64,000 bases of DNA, from contig NZ_JQGK01000001.1 of assembly GCF_000743525.1 (NCBI RefSeq), forward strand, positions 124,001 to 188,000. Reading direction: 5' to 3'. Under the pieces are notes generated by a model that was given only the letters and a program-made list of their open reading frames with translations, did not search any database and was not told the origin of the DNA. This stretch comes from Sulfurospirillum sp. SCADC (GTDB taxonomy: Bacteria; Campylobacterota; Campylobacteria; Campylobacterales; Sulfurospirillaceae). How positions within the stretch are numbered: the first letter of the stretch is position 1; the number at the start of each line of letters is the position of its first letter. Positions 4,373 through 35,005 of the stretch are shown piece by piece. A program made the translations under genes and the position numbers.

Positions 4373-4930
4373 TTAAAGTGTAGCCAGAGCCTCTTTGGCG
4401 TATTTGACGCCAAGCTCATACGCTTTATTATTGGCAGCATGAACCTTTTCAGGTACTTTGGAGAGCATAACTTCACGGACTAAGTCATGTGGCAGTACTT
4501 GTGTCATCTCAACGGTAATAGAAAGTGCCACAACCGATTGGGTGATCACATTGCCTACCTCTTCTTTGGCAATCGTAATAATAGGAATTTCAATGATATT
4601 CCATTTTTTACGATCTTCCTCGTTTACGGTAACCAAGTTTGGCTCAACAACAATGATTCCACCGGGTTTGACACCATTTTTGAATTGATTGAAACTGACT
4701 TGCGCCGTAGCGATCATAAACTCAATTTCACCCTCGTTCGCATAAGGAAAAAGGATTTCGCTCTCATCGAGCAAAATATCAACTTTTGTTGGACCCCCAC
4801 GCACTTGAGAGGTATAGGTGGAAGCTTTAACGCCGTATCCACCCTCTTTGATCTTCGCAACCGCTAAAATTTCACCCGCCAAGATAACACCCTGACCACC
4901 CACACCTACGAAACGTAATTGTCTTCTCAT
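4373..4930 (-). CDS. oorC: 2-oxoglutarate:acceptor oxidoreductase, gamma subunit
   Basis: Gamma subunit of the four-part OorDABC enzyme, which decarboxylates 2-oxoglutarate to succinyl-CoA and passes electrons to ferredoxin or flavodoxin. The start MRRQLRFVGVGGQGVILAGEIL has the GVGGQGV motif of the family. I start it at the ATG at 4928-4930, giving 186 residues; the frame is open further upstream but would run into oorB. It is the last gene of the operon oorD-oorA-oorB-oorC, 10 bases behind oorB. Confidence 0.93.
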   Translation of the reverse strand: MRRQLRFVGVGGQGVILAGEILAVAKIKEGGYGVKASTYTSQVRGGPTKVDILLDESEILFPYANEGEIEFMIATAQVSFNQFKNGVKPGGIIVVEPNLVTVNEEDRKKWNIIEIPIITIAKEEVGNVITQSVVALSITVEMTQVLPHDLVREVMLSKVPEKVHAANNKAYELGVKYAKEALATL

Positions 4931-4940
4931 CAGGGGCTCC

Positions 4941-5774
4941 TTATAGCACAACGGTTGTTTTGTTTTGTGCGGCGTAAATGACTTTGTCGTACGCTTCACA
5001 GTATTCGAGTTTGCCCTCTTCTTGCTTTAAGATGCCTGTTGGAAATTTATCCACACGCTCTTCCGCACTTAAAAGTTCAAACTTATTTTTACCTACGATA
5101 CGATTTTCAATCCACGCAAGATTTTGTACCGCTTCGCCCATTTTGTTTTTACGTCCAAGGTTGATGTGACAGTTGGAGAACACATCAAAGAAAGAGTAGC
5201 CTTTATGCGTAAAACCGGCAACAAACATCTTCTCCAATTTTTGTGGATCAAGCACAGACTCACGCGCAACAAAAGTTGCTCCTGCAGCATCCGCCAGTTT
5301 TGCAGCATCAAAGGTTGGATCGACGTTACCGTAGTTTGCTGTTGCTGTCCAAAACCCTTGAGGTGTTGTTGGGCTGGTTTGTGAGTTGGTCAAACCATAG
5401 ATGAAGTTATTGATCAAAACATGATTCAGATCGATGTTTCTTCGACAGCCATGAATCGTATGATTACCACCGATGGCAAGACCATCGCCATCACCCGTGA
5501 CAACAACAACGTGTTTTTCAGGATTTGCAAGCTTGATGCCTGTCGCGTATGCAATCGCACGACCATGCGTTGTATGAACCGTGTTACAGTCGATGTAAGA
5601 ACTAAAACGTCCACTACACCCAATACCTGAAACGATGCACACATCGTTCATATCCCAACCCATTTTATCGATAGCACGAATAACGGATTTTAAGATAACA
5701 CCATCACCACAACCCCAACACCATAAGGTTGGCATTTTATCTACACGTAGATATTTATCGTAATTAAATGCCAT
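4941..5774 (-). CDS. oorB: 2-oxoglutarate:acceptor oxidoreductase, beta subunit
   Basis: Thiamine-diphosphate-binding beta subunit of OorDABC. At 277 residues it has the family's usual length. Near residue 18 is WCWGCGDG, carrying cysteines for an Fe-S cluster. The TPP/Mg motif is GDGDGLAIGGNH, followed about 20 residues later by the NN of VLINN. The start codon overlaps the last base of oorA, so the two are probably translationally coupled. Confidence 0.95.
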   Translation of the reverse strand: MAFNYDKYLRVDKMPTLWCWGCGDGVILKSVIRAIDKMGWDMNDVCIVSGIGCSGRFSSYIDCNTVHTTHGRAIAYATGIKLANPEKHVVVVTGDGDGLAIGGNHTIHGCRRNIDLNHVLINNFIYGLTNSQTSPTTPQGFWTATANYGNVDPTFDAAKLADAAGATFVARESVLDPQKLEKMFVAGFTHKGYSFFDVFSNCHINLGRKNKMGEAVQNLAWIENRIVGKNKFELLSAEERVDKFPTGILKQEEGKLEYCEAYDKVIYAAQNKTTVVL

Positions 5775-6907
5775 TACATCATCTCCTTAACTTTAGCAAC
5801 CATTTCAAGTGGAGCGATTGGACGACCGTTTGCTTTGTGCAGTGTCGCAAAATCATCTCGTTTCATAACGCGTTGAATTTCTTCTAAGTACTGTCCCATA
5901 TTGAGCTCTGTTACCATGATCTTCTTAAATTTCTTACCAATCTCTTGAAGCTTAGCAACCGGACTTGGCCAAAGGGTAATCGGTCTAAACAGACCTGCTT
6001 TGATGCCATCATTGCGAAGTTTCATCACCGCTTCTTTCGCGCCACGGCTGATACTGCCATAGGCAATAATACAGACATCGGCATCTTCTAACATAAACTC
6101 TTCGTAATGGACAAGATCTTCGGATTTGGTATTGATTTTATTGACCAAACGCTCGATGTTGTACTCACAAATCGTACCATCTTCCGTTGGAAAACCCATT
6201 TCGCCATGGTGCAAACCTGTGACGTGGTAGTGATAGCCTTTAAAGAAAGGGTTCAGTACGGCTGGCTCTGTTGGACCTGCAGCATACGGTTTGTAGTCTT
6301 TTGGATCACCCGTAAACTCAGCACGTTTGACCACGCTCTTCTCAACGTCTGCAAGATCAGGAAGCATCGCTTTGCCGTGCATATGTCCTAGGGTTTCATC
6401 TAAAAGAACAAAGACAGGTGTCATATATTTTTCAGCGATATTAAACGCTCTTACGGTTTCCGTGTACGCCTCTTCAAGACTGCCTGGGCAGAGTGAAATG
6501 GAGGCAAAATCGCCATGTGTTGGGTATTTTGCTTGACCAATATCCGCTTGAGAAACACGGGTTGGAAGACCTGTTGAAGGACCACCACGCATAACGTTAA
6601 CGATGACCAAAGGAACTTCGGTGATAAAGCTGTAACCAATTTGTTCCGATTTGAGTGAAATGCCAGGACCAGATGATGCGGTCATCGACTTTGTTCCACT
6701 CATGGAAGCGCCAAGAGCGACACAGATACCAGCGATCTCATCTTCCATTTGAATAAACTTTCCACCCACACGTGGAAGAAGTTTGCTTAAATCCTCTGCA
6801 ATTTCACTCGAAGGCGTAATAGGATAGCCTCCAAAAAATTTACATCCACATTCCACTGCCGCTTTTGCTACTAAGGCATTGCCGCTTGATATTACTTCTC
6901 TTGCCAT
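5774..6907 (-). CDS. oorA: 2-oxoglutarate:acceptor oxidoreductase, alpha subunit
   Basis: Alpha subunit of OorDABC, covering the pyrimidine-binding half of the TPP site and the CoA-proximal domain. Start MAREVISSGNALVAKAA; GGYPITPSSEIAE near residue 30 is characteristic of this subunit, and SGPGISLKSE follows. A TTG lies directly upstream of the ATG (6905-6907); AAGGATC about 7 bases before favours the ATG. At 377 residues it matches the family. It lies between oorD and oorB without gaps. Confidence 0.95.
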   Translation of the reverse strand: MAREVISSGNALVAKAAVECGCKFFGGYPITPSSEIAEDLSKLLPRVGGKFIQMEDEIAGICVALGASMSGTKSMTASSGPGISLKSEQIGYSFITEVPLVIVNVMRGGPSTGLPTRVSQADIGQAKYPTHGDFASISLCPGSLEEAYTETVRAFNIAEKYMTPVFVLLDETLGHMHGKAMLPDLADVEKSVVKRAEFTGDPKDYKPYAAGPTEPAVLNPFFKGYHYHVTGLHHGEMGFPTEDGTICEYNIERLVNKINTKSEDLVHYEEFMLEDADVCIIAYGSISRGAKEAVMKLRNDGIKAGLFRPITLWPSPVAKLQEIGKKFKKIMVTELNMGQYLEEIQRVMKRDDFATLHKANGRPIAPLEMVAKVKEMM

Positions 6908-6916
6908 CAATGATCC

Positions 6917-7234
6917 TTATGCGCTCAGTTTTCTAAATTTATTTTGTTTGACTTTCTCGGCTCTCTCTTTTGAGGTTTCAGAAAGTTTTGCAAACTTAAA
7001 TTCGCTTTTATCCGCTACGTAAATAGCAAAATCAGGACAATGCAATTCACAATCCCGACACCCAATACAGGCGTCTGGTACAACAACCTCTATCATCGAA
7101 CCCAGTGTCGAGTTGGGTGCTTGAACCATGCCTAAAACACCTGCTGGACACATACTCACACAAATATCGCACGCTTTACACCTAGAAACATTAACCCATA
7201 CAGGTGTATTACTTGGAGCGGTAATTAAACCCAT
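6917..7234 (-). CDS. oorD: 2-oxoglutarate:acceptor oxidoreductase, delta (ferredoxin-like) subunit
   Basis: 105-residue protein with two [4Fe-4S] motifs, CKACDICVSMCP (from about residue 19) and CIGCRDCELHCP (from about residue 57). These are the electron-transfer clusters of the Oor complex. It is the first gene of oorDABC, as in Campylobacter and Helicobacter relatives. It follows sucD by about 100 bases, so it may have its own promoter or be read through from sucCD. Confidence 0.93.
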   Translation of the reverse strand: MGLITAPSNTPVWVNVSRCKACDICVSMCPAGVLGMVQAPNSTLGSMIEVVVPDACIGCRDCELHCPDFAIYVADKSEFKFAKLSETSKERAEKVKQNKFRKLSA

Positions 7235-7332
7235 TCTTCTCTCTCCTTATCCTAAATCTTTTCGTTGCAATGATCATCTTAAGAGTGGCTAGATTGTACA
7301 CTAGAAGACCATCTAGCTCTCTTAAATAGTCT

Positions 7333-8205
7333 TTATTTTTTCAAAACTTCCGCTATCTTTGTTCCAATTTCAGCAGGGGATTTGACAACATGTACGCCTG
7401 CATTGCTTAGCGCTTCCATCTTCTCTGCTGCGGTTCCTGCACTACCACTTACAATCGCACCGGCATGTCCCATACGTTTACCCTTCGGTGCGCTTTGCCC
7501 TGCGATAAACGCAACAACAGGTTTTTTAATATGCTCTTTAATGTATTTGGCAGCTTGGATTTCAAGATCACCTCCAATTTCACCAATCATTACGATCGCT
7601 TCCGTCTCAGGGTCTGCTTCAAACATGCCAAGGAGTTGAATATAGGAGAGTCCAATAATAGGATCGCCACCAATACCAACGGCTGTCGTAATGCCAAAAC
7701 CTTCATTGCACACTTGGTTCGCACCTTCATAGGTCAATGTACCTGATTTACTAATCAGTCCAATATTGCCTTTTTTGAAAATGGAACCTGGCATAATGCC
7801 GATTTTGCACTCTTCCGCGGTGATAATGCCTGGGCAGTTTGGTCCAATGGTTTTCATCCCTTTTTTAACCGCGTACGCTTTGGCTCTTTGCATATCACGA
7901 ACGGGTGAGCCCTCGGTGATAATCACTGCCAGTTCAATACCAGCGTCTGCTGCTTCTAAAACCGCATCGCCCACAAAGGCAGGTGGAACAAATACCATAC
8001 TTACGGTTGCTCCCGTTGCAACAACGGCTTCACGAACCGTATCAAACACGGGTTGTCCCAAATGTTCTGTGCCGCCTTTGCCCGGAGTCACGCCTCCTAC
8101 AATTTTTGTACCGTATGCCAAACACTGTTCCGCATGAAAACTACCCTCTTTACCCGTAAACCCTTGAACAATTACTTTTGTATTTTTGTCAATCAATATG
8201 CTCAT
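7333..8205 (-). CDS. sucD: Succinyl-CoA synthetase, alpha subunit
   Basis: Together with SucC it interconverts succinyl-CoA and succinate with nucleotide triphosphate formation. 290 residues: N-terminal CoA-binding Rossmann domain ([14 protein letters not shown]), GPNCPGI near the middle, and GHAGAIVSG with the phosphohistidine near residue 246. The sucC stop lies 2 bases upstream, so both belong to one transcript. It stands directly before oorD, whose enzyme makes its substrate. Confidence 0.96.
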
Positions 8206-29920: not shown

Positions 29921-30895
29921 TTAAATTATATCATCCTCTATATATCGTATTCGATTTTCATAAATAGTGATATTATCAACTTTTAACCTAACATGTAATC
30001 CATCAATGACAATATTTTCATCAAAATTCCAATACAATCCTAAAGCACAAAAAGTACTCTTTCTTCCTTTAAATACTTTTCCATCTGTTAATCTCGTTGC
30101 GAAAACTTTAACATCATAAGTCTTTCTTTGAGCATTTTCAAAATGAAAAATTATTCTATTTGCTTGTAATTCTACTTTTTCAAGCGATAACCATCTGTGA
30201 TTAAAAAGGCCTAATGAATCAACTTTAATTTTTCCATGAAGTTTTCTTTTTGCATGATCATTTAACCAATATAACAAGCTCTCTTTATCCGATTGAGAAC
30301 GGACAACAACAAGTTTTAGACAATCATAAACATCCAACTCATTTTTAACGAGCACCTCCGCATGACGGCAGTATTTAATGTGGTCTCGATAAGTCTCTTG
30401 AGGAAGTGCAGAGCTGTGGAAGATATTATCAAATTCCAATTTTTCTAAATCTGCTAAATTGTTATAAATTTCTGCACCTCTATTTGCAATATTTCCATTG
30501 CTAAATAAAATGTTATCAAGTGAAAGTATCTTAATAAAATCAAATAATAAAAAGACAGGAACAGGGCAATGTGCATTATTTTGAACTTGCGATAGTGGGA
30601 GAATTCCTTCGTTAATATACTGTGTAGGTGTTTTGGGACGAAAATAAAATCTAGCATAATCTTTATAGTAATTTTGTGTATGTTGGATGACATCGTCGTG
30701 CGCATTATCATTCACCATTAGTCCTAACTCGATTGCTTTATTTCGACTGTACAATTTTCCACAATTAAGTATTTTTACAACATTCTCTATGTGTGAGAAG
30801 TGGTAAATATAATTAGACCACCATTCTTGTTGGCTTCCTCTAAACTTTTCTTGAAGGTTTTGTTGAAATGTTTTTAAAAATATTTCTTTTTTCAT
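29921..30895 (-). CDS. darT: DarT-type DNA ADP-ribosyltransferase toxin (DUF4433)
   Basis: DarT enzymes attach ADP-ribose to single-stranded DNA bases, blocking replication, and act in phage defence. 324 residues: IYHFSHIENVVKIL and KLYSRN with Arg51 (NAD-site Arg), the ADP-ribosylating loop region including FYFRPKTPTQY, and RHAEVLV with the predicted catalytic Glu. All match the DUF4433 pattern. The ATG overlaps the last 4 bases of darG, so the antitoxin is translated first. The C-terminus (about 240-324) is longer than the catalytic core and unassigned. Low GC compared with the hyp genes. Confidence 0.9.
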   Translation of the reverse strand: MKKEIFLKTFQQNLQEKFRGSQQEWWSNYIYHFSHIENVVKILNCGKLYSRNKAIELGLMVNDNAHDDVIQHTQNYYKDYARFYFRPKTPTQYINEGILPLSQVQNNAHCPVPVFLLFDFIKILSLDNILFSNGNIANRGAEIYNNLADLEKLEFDNIFHSSALPQETYRDHIKYCRHAEVLVKNELDVYDCLKLVVVRSQSDKESLLYWLNDHAKRKLHGKIKVDSLGLFNHRWLSLEKVELQANRIIFHFENAQRKTYDVKVFATRLTDGKVFKGRKSTFCALGLYWNFDENIVIDGLHVRLKVDNITIYENRIRYIEDDII

Positions 30896-31797
30896 GCAAC
30901 AAATTCATTTGTGGTGATTGTTTTTTGTGGTTGTTTGTGAGGAAGTATTCTTAGCCCTATCTCCTCTTCATTATTTTTTCCATCTATCCGAGTCAAGGAT
31001 AAATAATCTAATTGACTTAAAAACAAGAAAACAATTAAATAATTTTTTGCTAATTCTTGAGGAAGCATCTGTTTTAAAAGAAGTCCACCTCTTCTTAGTA
31101 CCATCCAAATTGAAGATAATTCACTTTCAGATAAATAAAATTTGTTATTTTCTGTTTTTAACACAAAATAACTATCATTTTGATCTTTTTCATATTTAAT
31201 TTCAAAAGACATCTCCATTCCATTTATGACTTCAGGAATAAGTTTTCCAAATCTTTCTTTTAAGTGAATTAAAAATTCCTTACTTGATAAATAGGACGGT
31301 TCAGATTTTAACCAAGTCTCAATTTCTTTAGAAGATTCATGTTCAGGTTTTAAATCATCTTTTTTTGATGTATGAATATAAATATCTATAGGAAGTTTTT
31401 TTAAGTATCGTTCCATAACTTCTTTGACTATATCCCAATCTAAGCCACCGTTTCCACATCCTATCATTGGGAATGAGATAGACTGAATACCAAGTCTTTC
31501 ATAGTTATCTACGAACTTTTGTAACCCTTGTTCAATATACTCTATTTTTGAAGGGTTGCGCCAATTCAGTTTGGTTGGAAAATTCAAAATCCATTTATTG
31601 GATGTTTTAAAAAGTTGCAATTTACCAATGGATAAATGTCCACTTTCACAATATTTTTGATAAGCATGAAACATTTCAGGATACAATCGTTTGAAATCGG
31701 AAGCTAATCCTTTTCCCATAACACCTACAATGTTAACAGGGTTTACAAGAACTTGTGCATTTGATTCAAACAAATTTGTTCTGACATATGTAATCAT
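30892..31797 (-). CDS. darG: DarG-type macrodomain antitoxin
   Basis: Removes ADP-ribose from DNA and blocks DarT. 301 residues: macrodomain (1-155) with VLVNPVNIVGVMGKGLA, the NFPTKLNWRNPS loop whose Lys matches the catalytic Lys of DarG, and FPMIGCGNGGLDW. The C-terminal 140 residues correspond to the DarT-binding, DNA-mimic part of DarG and are less conserved. The AT-rich gap before it (31798-32051) should hold the promoter of the pair. Confidence 0.9.
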   Translation of the reverse strand: MITYVRTNLFESNAQVLVNPVNIVGVMGKGLASDFKRLYPEMFHAYQKYCESGHLSIGKLQLFKTSNKWILNFPTKLNWRNPSKIEYIEQGLQKFVDNYERLGIQSISFPMIGCGNGGLDWDIVKEVMERYLKKLPIDIYIHTSKKDDLKPEHESSKEIETWLKSEPSYLSSKEFLIHLKERFGKLIPEVINGMEMSFEIKYEKDQNDSYFVLKTENNKFYLSESELSSIWMVLRRGGLLLKQMLPQELAKNYLIVFLFLSQLDYLSLTRIDGKNNEEEIGLRILPHKQPQKTITTNEFVA

Positions 31798-32051: not shown

Positions 32052-34115
32052 ATGAAAAAACAGCTCACCACCTTGACACTCACTGGTTTAATGATAGGGC
32101 CCATTTTAGGCTCTGGTATCATTCTTTTGCCACCTATTGTTTATGATCTTATGGGCAATCTTTCCATTCTTGTGTGGTTCATCATTTTAGCGCTTGGATT
32201 TGCTTTTGCGCTTGTTCTTGGGAATTTAAGCATCAAATTTTCAGGCGATGAAGGGGTGACAAATGCGGTACAAGAAGCCTTTAGCACCAAGCTCAAATTC
32301 CTGACATCGTACTATCTGATCAGCGCTGTTTTTTTTGGGCCTGTTGCCGTTTATCTCATCGGTGCTCATTTTCTGCAACCTCTTCTTGGCATCAACGTTA
32401 ACGCGCTTGCGTTTTCAATGTTACTGTTTACATTTTTTGCTCTTTTGCGCCCTGTTCATTTTTTAGGAACGCTCTCTTTGATCGTCACGACCATCATTGG
32501 TATTATTTTGAGTCTTGGAAGCATCGCTATTTTGGTTGGACATGAAACCACCTTTTCGATAGACTCACCGTTTGATATGACACTAATTTCACGGGCGTTA
32601 CTGCTTGCTTTTTGGGCGATTGTGGGCTGGGAAGTGGTGGGTAATTACTCCAAAGAGGTGCATGATCCTAAACGAACGATTCCCAAAGCGGTGAAGATCA
32701 GCGCTGTCATTATCTCACTCATCTACCTTTTAGTCGTCTGCGCCATCCAATGTGCTTCACTCGATCGCACAAACACCATCACGGCACTGATTTATCCTCT
32801 GTTTGGAACAACCAGTGCGTTTGTGATGGGCATCTTAGCGATGTTGCTGTGTTTGAGCACGGTTTTACTCTTTGTGGGAGGTGTTTCAAGGCTCATCAGT
32901 GTGTTTTTGAGCTTAATGGCAGCCAATGCACTTGCAGAGTCTGCAAAAAATGTAGATGATACAACAGAAAAAAATGAGGCGTCAGTCCTCTTAGGCATTA
33001 CAGTCGAAGATATACGTGCCGATGGGCTTAGACCTGAAACGGTAGAAGCAGGAACGTTTCGTGGAACGAACATTATGGATGTGCCCTCAACCGTGAATGT
33101 CATCACCAAAGAGGCTTTGGAGTTACAAGCAGCAACAGGAACGTATGATGCGCTGCGCAATACCGCAGGTGTCACCAAACAGCAAAACGGTGGTGAGACG
33201 TGGGATCAGTTGGTCATTCGGGGTATTGAAGTGCAAAACCGTACCAATTATCGACTCAATGGCTCTTTGCCACTGATGAACTTTAGCCAAGTTCCCCTTG
33301 AAGATAAAGAGCGCGTTGAAGTGCTTAAGGGCGCATCGGCACTCTATTATGGGTTTACGTCTCCTGCTGGGATTATTAATTACGTCACCAAACGCCCGAC
33401 AAACGAACCTATGGCTACCGTTGGTTTAATGATGGATCAGTATGGCTCAGCCGTTGGATCTGCAGATGTAAGTGAACGTTTTGGCGAAGAAAAACAGGTG
33501 GGAGTAAGGGTAAATGCCGCAGGAGGCACACTGGGTTCGTATCTGGATGATGTGGACAATGGCAATCGAAGCTTTGTCGCCATGGCGCTGGATTGGCAAG
33601 TGAATGATCGCTTAAGCATTAAAGCCGATGTCGAGCATGAACATCGCCAAGTGACAGAACAAGTAGGCATTGCTCTTCCCAAAGCGGTTAACGGCGTTAT
33701 CACCTTACCTAAAACGGTTGATCCAACAACATTGGTAGGACCAGATTCGAGTAAGTTTGAAACCGAAACGACCAATGTTTTGCTCAGGTCTGATTATGCG
33801 CTTAGCGACACATGGAGTCTTGGGCTAGAAGCAGGACGAGCAAAAACACAGCGTGAGCGAAACCTTGCTACCTTTACCTTTTCGAACCCTCAAGCGACCA
33901 CGCTCAACACAGGTGCTGGAACAGTAAAAGTGAACCACCAAGAGTACGAGTACACCTCTGATCTGTTGCGTGCTGAACTTTACGGCGTTGTGAATATAGG
34001 AGATATTCAACATGATTTAACCTTTGGAACCAGTTACACCGAAAAAATCAAGAGCCTATTTCAAGCAGAACCTCTTCGACGCTTGCTCAAAATCTCTATA
34101 CACCACACTCCATAA
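32052..34115 (+). pseudogene. Chimera: truncated amino-acid permease fused in frame to TonB-dependent siderophore receptor
   Basis: One 687-codon frame joins two unrelated proteins. Residues 1 to about 283 are an APC-superfamily permease (GLMIGPILGSGIILLPP near the start, GWEVVGNYSKEVHDP, about nine membrane segments) that lacks its C-terminal third. From about 32,900 it continues as the end of a signal peptide (LSLMAANALAES) and a TonB receptor: plug domain with DVPSTVNVITKEAL, DQLVIRGIEV and ERVEVLKGASALYYG, then the first part of the barrel. It ends early through a frameshift near 34,050-34,080. A deletion between two genes best explains the join. A permease-linked barrel could not be sorted to the outer membrane, so I call it non-functional as a receptor. 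Confidence 0.85.
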
Positions 34116-35005
34116 CCCCAACGGTTTTCACACAGACGACAGGTGTTTCGTATACCACAAAAGATACGGGTTTTTATACGATGGATCGTGTTACACTGGA
34201 TCCGCAGTGGCAGGTTATCGCAGGATTGCGTCATTCCAAATATGAGAGTGATCAAGATGTAACGCGCTATAAGGCGAGTGAAACCACGCCGATGATCGCC
34301 CTTGTTTACAAACCTTTGAAGAGTGTATCGTTGTATGCTTCGTATTCAGAAGGATTAGAAGAAGGCAAAGCGGCACCCACAGGAACGCAAAATGAATCTG
34401 AACGCCTGAATCCTGGTGTTAGTAAGCAGTACGAGCTAGGCGCTCATTGACTGATACCAACGACAGGTACACTTGTCTCAGCAGCGGTGTTTGATATAGA
34501 AAGCCCTGGGTATTACACCGACGCGGCGAACTATTATGTCGCAGGTGGGCATAAACGCTACAGTGGCGTTGAACTCTCCGCGCAGGGAAAAATCACCGAA
34601 CAACTCAGTTGGCTTGCATCCACACAATGGCTAGACCCTCGTTTTGAAGATATGGAAGGTGATGCAACCGCACTCAATGGCAAATTGCCTGAAAATGCGG
34701 CACGTCGTACAGGAAGTCTGTTTCTAAGCTATGATCTCAGCAGCATTCCAGGGCTTTCCATCAATGGCGGTGCTTACTATACCGGTCGTCGTCCAGTGAA
34801 TGACCTAAACCAAGCGTGGTTGGATGATGTGACGCTCTTTAGTCTCGGCAGTCGCTATGTCACCAAACTCTATGGCAAGAAAAATATCTGGCAAATTAAT
34901 GTCGATAATGTCGCCGACAAAGAGTATTGGGCAGCAGGAGGCACGCGCCTTGCGGCTGGATCTCCTCGCACGATTCGCTTGAATTATAAAGTGGAATTGT
35001 ATTAG
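34073..35005 (+). pseudogene. 3' remainder of the TonB-dependent receptor, frameshifted and with a nonsense codon
   Basis: In the +2 frame relative to the upstream part the barrel resumes at about 34,073 (SSTLAQNLY..., YTTKDTGFYTMDRV, WQVIAGLRHSKYESD). It is interrupted by TGA at 34448-34450, where the usual receptor text is YELGAxW, so TGG to TGA is likely. After the stop the same frame continues through FDIESPGYYTDAANYY to the typical barrel end (NVDNVADKEYWAAGG..., final aromatic-containing VELY*). Together with the chimera it accounts for one whole receptor of about 700 residues. Confidence 0.85.

Follow-up and report, generated by a model that had tools for sequence, protein, structure and literature searches.

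An in-frame permease–TonB receptor fusion in Sulfurospirillum sp. SCADC is probably a pair of recently inactivated genes

Introduction

The stretch analysed here, called the window, comprises 64,000 nucleotides of the genome of Sulfurospirillum sp. SCADC. One open reading frame of 687 aa starts with ATG at position 32052 and runs on the forward strand to 34115 without a stop across 2 kb. In this single frame a YjeH-like amino-acid permease (residues 1–283) is followed by the signal-peptide core and the plug of a TonB-dependent siderophore receptor. The question is whether such a frame encodes a hybrid protein or is what remains of two separate genes. With a probability of about 0.92 we regard the locus as a double pseudogene: a deletion of about 580 bp, not long ago, left remnants that are in frame by chance, and the receptor part carries a frameshift and a nonsense codon in addition.

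Results

The permease part

Pfam matches AA_permease_2 at residues 5–282 (E 1.9e-17) and, in the same frame, the TonB Plug at residues 341–441 (E 5e-19). The sequence-only reading had described about 283 permease residues running into the signal-peptide end and plug of a receptor, and both this description and its coordinates agree with the open reading frame and the Pfam matches. The coordinates of the features are compiled in Table 1.

Table 1. Features of the fused locus in the window
Feature	Coordinates	Strand	Basis
Permease 5' part, codons 1–283	32052..32901	+	Pfam, NCBIfam, full-length 396-aa homologue in L122
Deletion junction between 32901 and 32902, with imperfect 11-bp direct repeat	32891..32902	+	Comparison with L001
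Receptor part in the permease frame: signal-peptide core, plug, first barrel strands, then ~20 out-of-frame residues	32902..34115	+	Plug domain; TIGR01783 positions 1–325 of 649; alignment to the 714-aa receptor of L001
Frameshift: one-base contraction in an A-run	34037..34047	+	Alignment with six relatives
Rest of the receptor barrel, off-frame relative to the fused ORF, with TGA at 34448–34450	34116..35005	+	ORFs 34181–34450 and 34487–35005; W>stop on the window branch

The best NCBIfam model for the permease part is the L-methionine/branched-chain amino acid transporter (YjeH type, NF008245), which scores below its cut-off. Like these exporters of the APC superfamily, the window product matches the profile over a long stretch (residues 2–294 on profile positions 5–307), but unlike them it has no C-terminal helices. 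A full-length relative (L007) likewise stays under the NF008245 cut-off. By hydropathy the helix set is incomplete: 9 peaks are seen in the fused protein, the ninth overlapping the join, and 12 in L122, the relative with 396 aa. About eight helices precede the cut in the permease, and in the full-length relative the profile shows three further clear helices beyond it. A second copy of the permease was not found in the window's genome, where its Pfam family has one further member.

Separate genes in the relatives

The closest relative is L001 (identical to G005:C113), from the MAG of Sulfurospirillum sp. UBA1314. Here the permease, whose end is at 5124 and part of whose sequence is masked by N, is the neighbour of an intact 714-aa receptor at 5324–7468 on the same strand. 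In G019 (L122) an uninterrupted 396-aa permease precedes a 705-aa receptor, and this gene order recurs in G007 (L123). In all three relatives the two genes are thus adjacent in the same order and on the same strand, and the receptors comprise 705–714 aa. An "open frame" of 1190 aa over both genes of G019 was considered as a second full-length fusion and rejected, as translation runs into seven stops after the permease and before the receptor begins. High-identity matches in G002 and G014 were confined to the permease.

Three further genomes, G013, G012, and G020 (L125, L126, and L127), carry the receptor upstream of the permease, the reverse of the order in the window, G005, G007, and G019. 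At 92% DNA identity, compared with 72% in the permease, the G013 receptor resembles the window's receptor unusually closely, which suggests recombination of the receptor gene between lineages. The UBA1314 MAG contains two versions of the locus on separate contigs (L001 and L002), probably from two strains that were binned together.

Mapping of the junction

The match of the permease to its relatives stops at 32901 and the match of the receptor begins at 32902, with an ambiguous overlap of 11 bp (32891–32901); the join had been placed near 32,900 from the sequence alone. The comparison proposed then, with relatives having separate genes, was made with L001, L122, and L123. On L001 the permease extends up to position 4783, and the receptor from window position 32891/32902 corresponds to 5353/5364. 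The stretch absent from the window is therefore L001 4784–5363, that is 580 bp, made up of 341 nt of the permease end including the stop codon, 199 nt of intergenic sequence, and 40 nt of the receptor. In terms of protein, about 113 C-terminal codons of the permease and residues 1–13 of the receptor (13 codons and one base) are missing. The same reckoning against G007 and G019 gives a gap of 596–597 bp.

Identity between the window and L001 is 93–95% as far as 32901; after the join it is 96%, and this match extends to 35546. Both flanks of the join are collinear with the relatives and synteny is retained. Since the window and L001 are collinear on either side, one deletion of 580 bp accounts for everything in between. 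A clean deletion between two neighbouring genes, as suspected from the sequence alone, fits these data.

At the breakpoint both parent genes code for Leu-Ile-Ser, in the frame that was eventually joined. The 11-base repeat agrees at 8 of 11 positions in L001, and agreement this good is found for 0.17% of the position pairs in the same region. A search for exact microhomology at the breakpoint yielded a single exact base in L001, inside this imperfect repeat. As only this one base is shared exactly in L001 and 6 of 11 positions agree in G007, slippage between imperfect short repeats is put forward tentatively, as a plausible mechanism of the deletion. The same double pseudogene could also have been produced by recombination over a longer homology or by a mobile element. 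We consider this unlikely: a different insertion is indeed situated just upstream (DarTG, see below), but the join is precise to the base and has no remnant of an element.

The deletion also concerns the region between the genes. All three relatives retain an intergenic block that contains a core resembling a Fur box, AATGATTCTCAATTA, and, ahead of the receptor ATG, a purine-rich stretch. The core is a putative Fur box, and the purine-rich stretch could be a ribosome-binding site. In the window both elements are gone, together with the receptor promoter region and the receptor start.

The insertion site upstream of the permease

Directly upstream of the permease the window carries a DarT/DarG toxin–antitoxin pair (29921–31797, reverse strand) in an insertion of about 2.0 kb. 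DarT is a DNA ADP-ribosyltransferase (Pfam DarT, E 3e-26), and DarG is a macro-domain antitoxin (NCBIfam and PADLOC). At the same site G007 and G019 have only about 22 bp, whereas the insertion in L001 is another one, about 500 bp long and with a 106-aa ORF. The site looks like an insertion hotspot.

Further lesions in the receptor part

The best NCBIfam model for the receptor part is the TonB-dependent siderophore receptor (TIGR01783), of which only the first half is matched. The window scores 160.7 bits (profile positions 1–325 of 649) against a cut-off of 223.5 bits, whereas the intact receptor of L001 reaches 317.5 bits; a complete plug and barrel in one frame is thus not found. The window shares the plug with these receptors, but differs from them in having no signal-peptide n-region, a frameshifted barrel, and a nonsense codon.

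Alignment with six relatives revealed that one A has been lost from an A-run near 34042. Because of this frameshift the fused frame ends at 34115, after about 20 out-of-frame residues. Receptor sequence remains recognisable in another frame to 35005 and contains a change from a Trp codon to TGA at 34448–34450, which occurred on the window branch. Both lesions downstream of the join had been missed in the sequence-only reading. The other TonB receptors of the genome are only distantly related (about 30% identity or less).

The frameshift sits in a homopolymer, and homopolymers are also places where sequencing errors occur. We therefore considered whether the join and the two other lesions could all be assembly or sequencing errors in an organism with two intact genes. 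Apart from the position of one lesion in an A-run, the data speak against it and make it improbable: the flanks are collinear with the relatives on both sides, three different kinds of lesion lie in one locus, on a 290-kb contig of a genome with a completeness rating of 99.99%, the absent 580 bp match no repeat seen here that would collapse, and neither gene has a second, intact copy in the assembly.

In the complete genome G007 (L123, 1892–4033 and 4249–5441) the receptor carries the same A-run contraction as the window, and a one-base insertion about 70 nt further on restores the frame. The permease of G007 is also interrupted near its N-terminus (a TGA is reported). The permease–receptor locus decays repeatedly in the genus.

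Distribution and age of the fusion

A 29-base sequence spanning the junction has a single occurrence in the genome of the window; the 23 other genomes of the genus that were searched lack it. With the junction in 1 of 24 genomes, the conservation in several lineages that would mark a functional fusion is not seen. A literature search on the permease–receptor locus found nothing.

Changes were assigned to the branches of the window and its sister L001 with the other relatives as outgroups. In the receptor the window branch has 33 synonymous changes and 7 nonsynonymous ones, the latter including the nonsense change; on the L001 branch the counts are 28 and 6. For the permease the respective numbers are 15 and 5 on the window branch and 22 and 9 on the L001 branch. 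In a gene that has long been unconstrained, mostly nonsynonymous change is expected. The strongly synonymous change on the window branch implies that nearly all of this branch was passed under selection; judged from these substitutions, the inactivation of the locus is recent. The sequence-only reading had left open whether the event was recent or the product tolerated. Its first alternative is supported, as there is no nonsynonymous excess; the second, a tolerated working product, is not supported, given two receptor lesions, the loss of most of the barrel, the cut permease, and the missing promoter region and start of the receptor.

Discussion

Comparison with the relatives shows that the locus carries a deletion, a frameshift, and a premature stop. 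The deletion of about 580 bp, perhaps caused by slippage between two imperfect short repeats, removed the end of the gene for a YjeH-like amino-acid exporter, the promoter region between the genes, and receptor codons 1–13. The remnants landed in one frame by chance, for which the odds are about one in three, and the receptor was additionally hit by a frameshift and a nonsense mutation, making the locus a double pseudogene. If the frame is still transcribed from the permease promoter, a 687-aa membrane protein would result, for which no transport function is expected. Both halves are presumably without function, since the final transmembrane helices of the permease and most of the receptor barrel are missing.

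A working hybrid, with the permease helices in the inner membrane and RLISVFLSLMAANALA as an internal cleavable signal at which signal peptidase frees a plug-containing fragment, is very improbable: the frame is open to 34115 and the signal-peptide hydrophobic core is retained with an A-x-A type cleavage motif behind an arginine at the helix end, but the frameshift has cost the barrel so that no receptor can form, the last predicted permease helices are missing, and the fusion is confined to one genome. Equally slight is the chance that the fused 5' part is expressed and that a plug fragment freed at the internal signal-peptide core has a residual effect, for example on TonB.

The double pseudogene matters mainly for annotation: the open reading frame is to be labelled as two pseudogenes rather than a hybrid transporter. 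In one Sulfurospirillum genome a siderophore receptor and an amino-acid exporter have recently been lost, and the case cautions that an open frame of 2 kb with two good domain matches can be a dead gene.

Rather than a new hybrid protein, this Campylobacterota genome carries a fusion pseudogene of an ordinary kind, the genes being separate neighbours in the relatives, a single collinear deletion joining them, and further inactivating lesions being present. As in other fusion pseudogenes that arise by a small deletion between adjacent co-directional genes, a truncated upstream gene is joined to a 5'-truncated downstream gene, the promoter region of the second gene is lost, more inactivating mutations are found, and the fusion occurs in one strain only. 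The locus differs from them in that the join here happens to be in frame.
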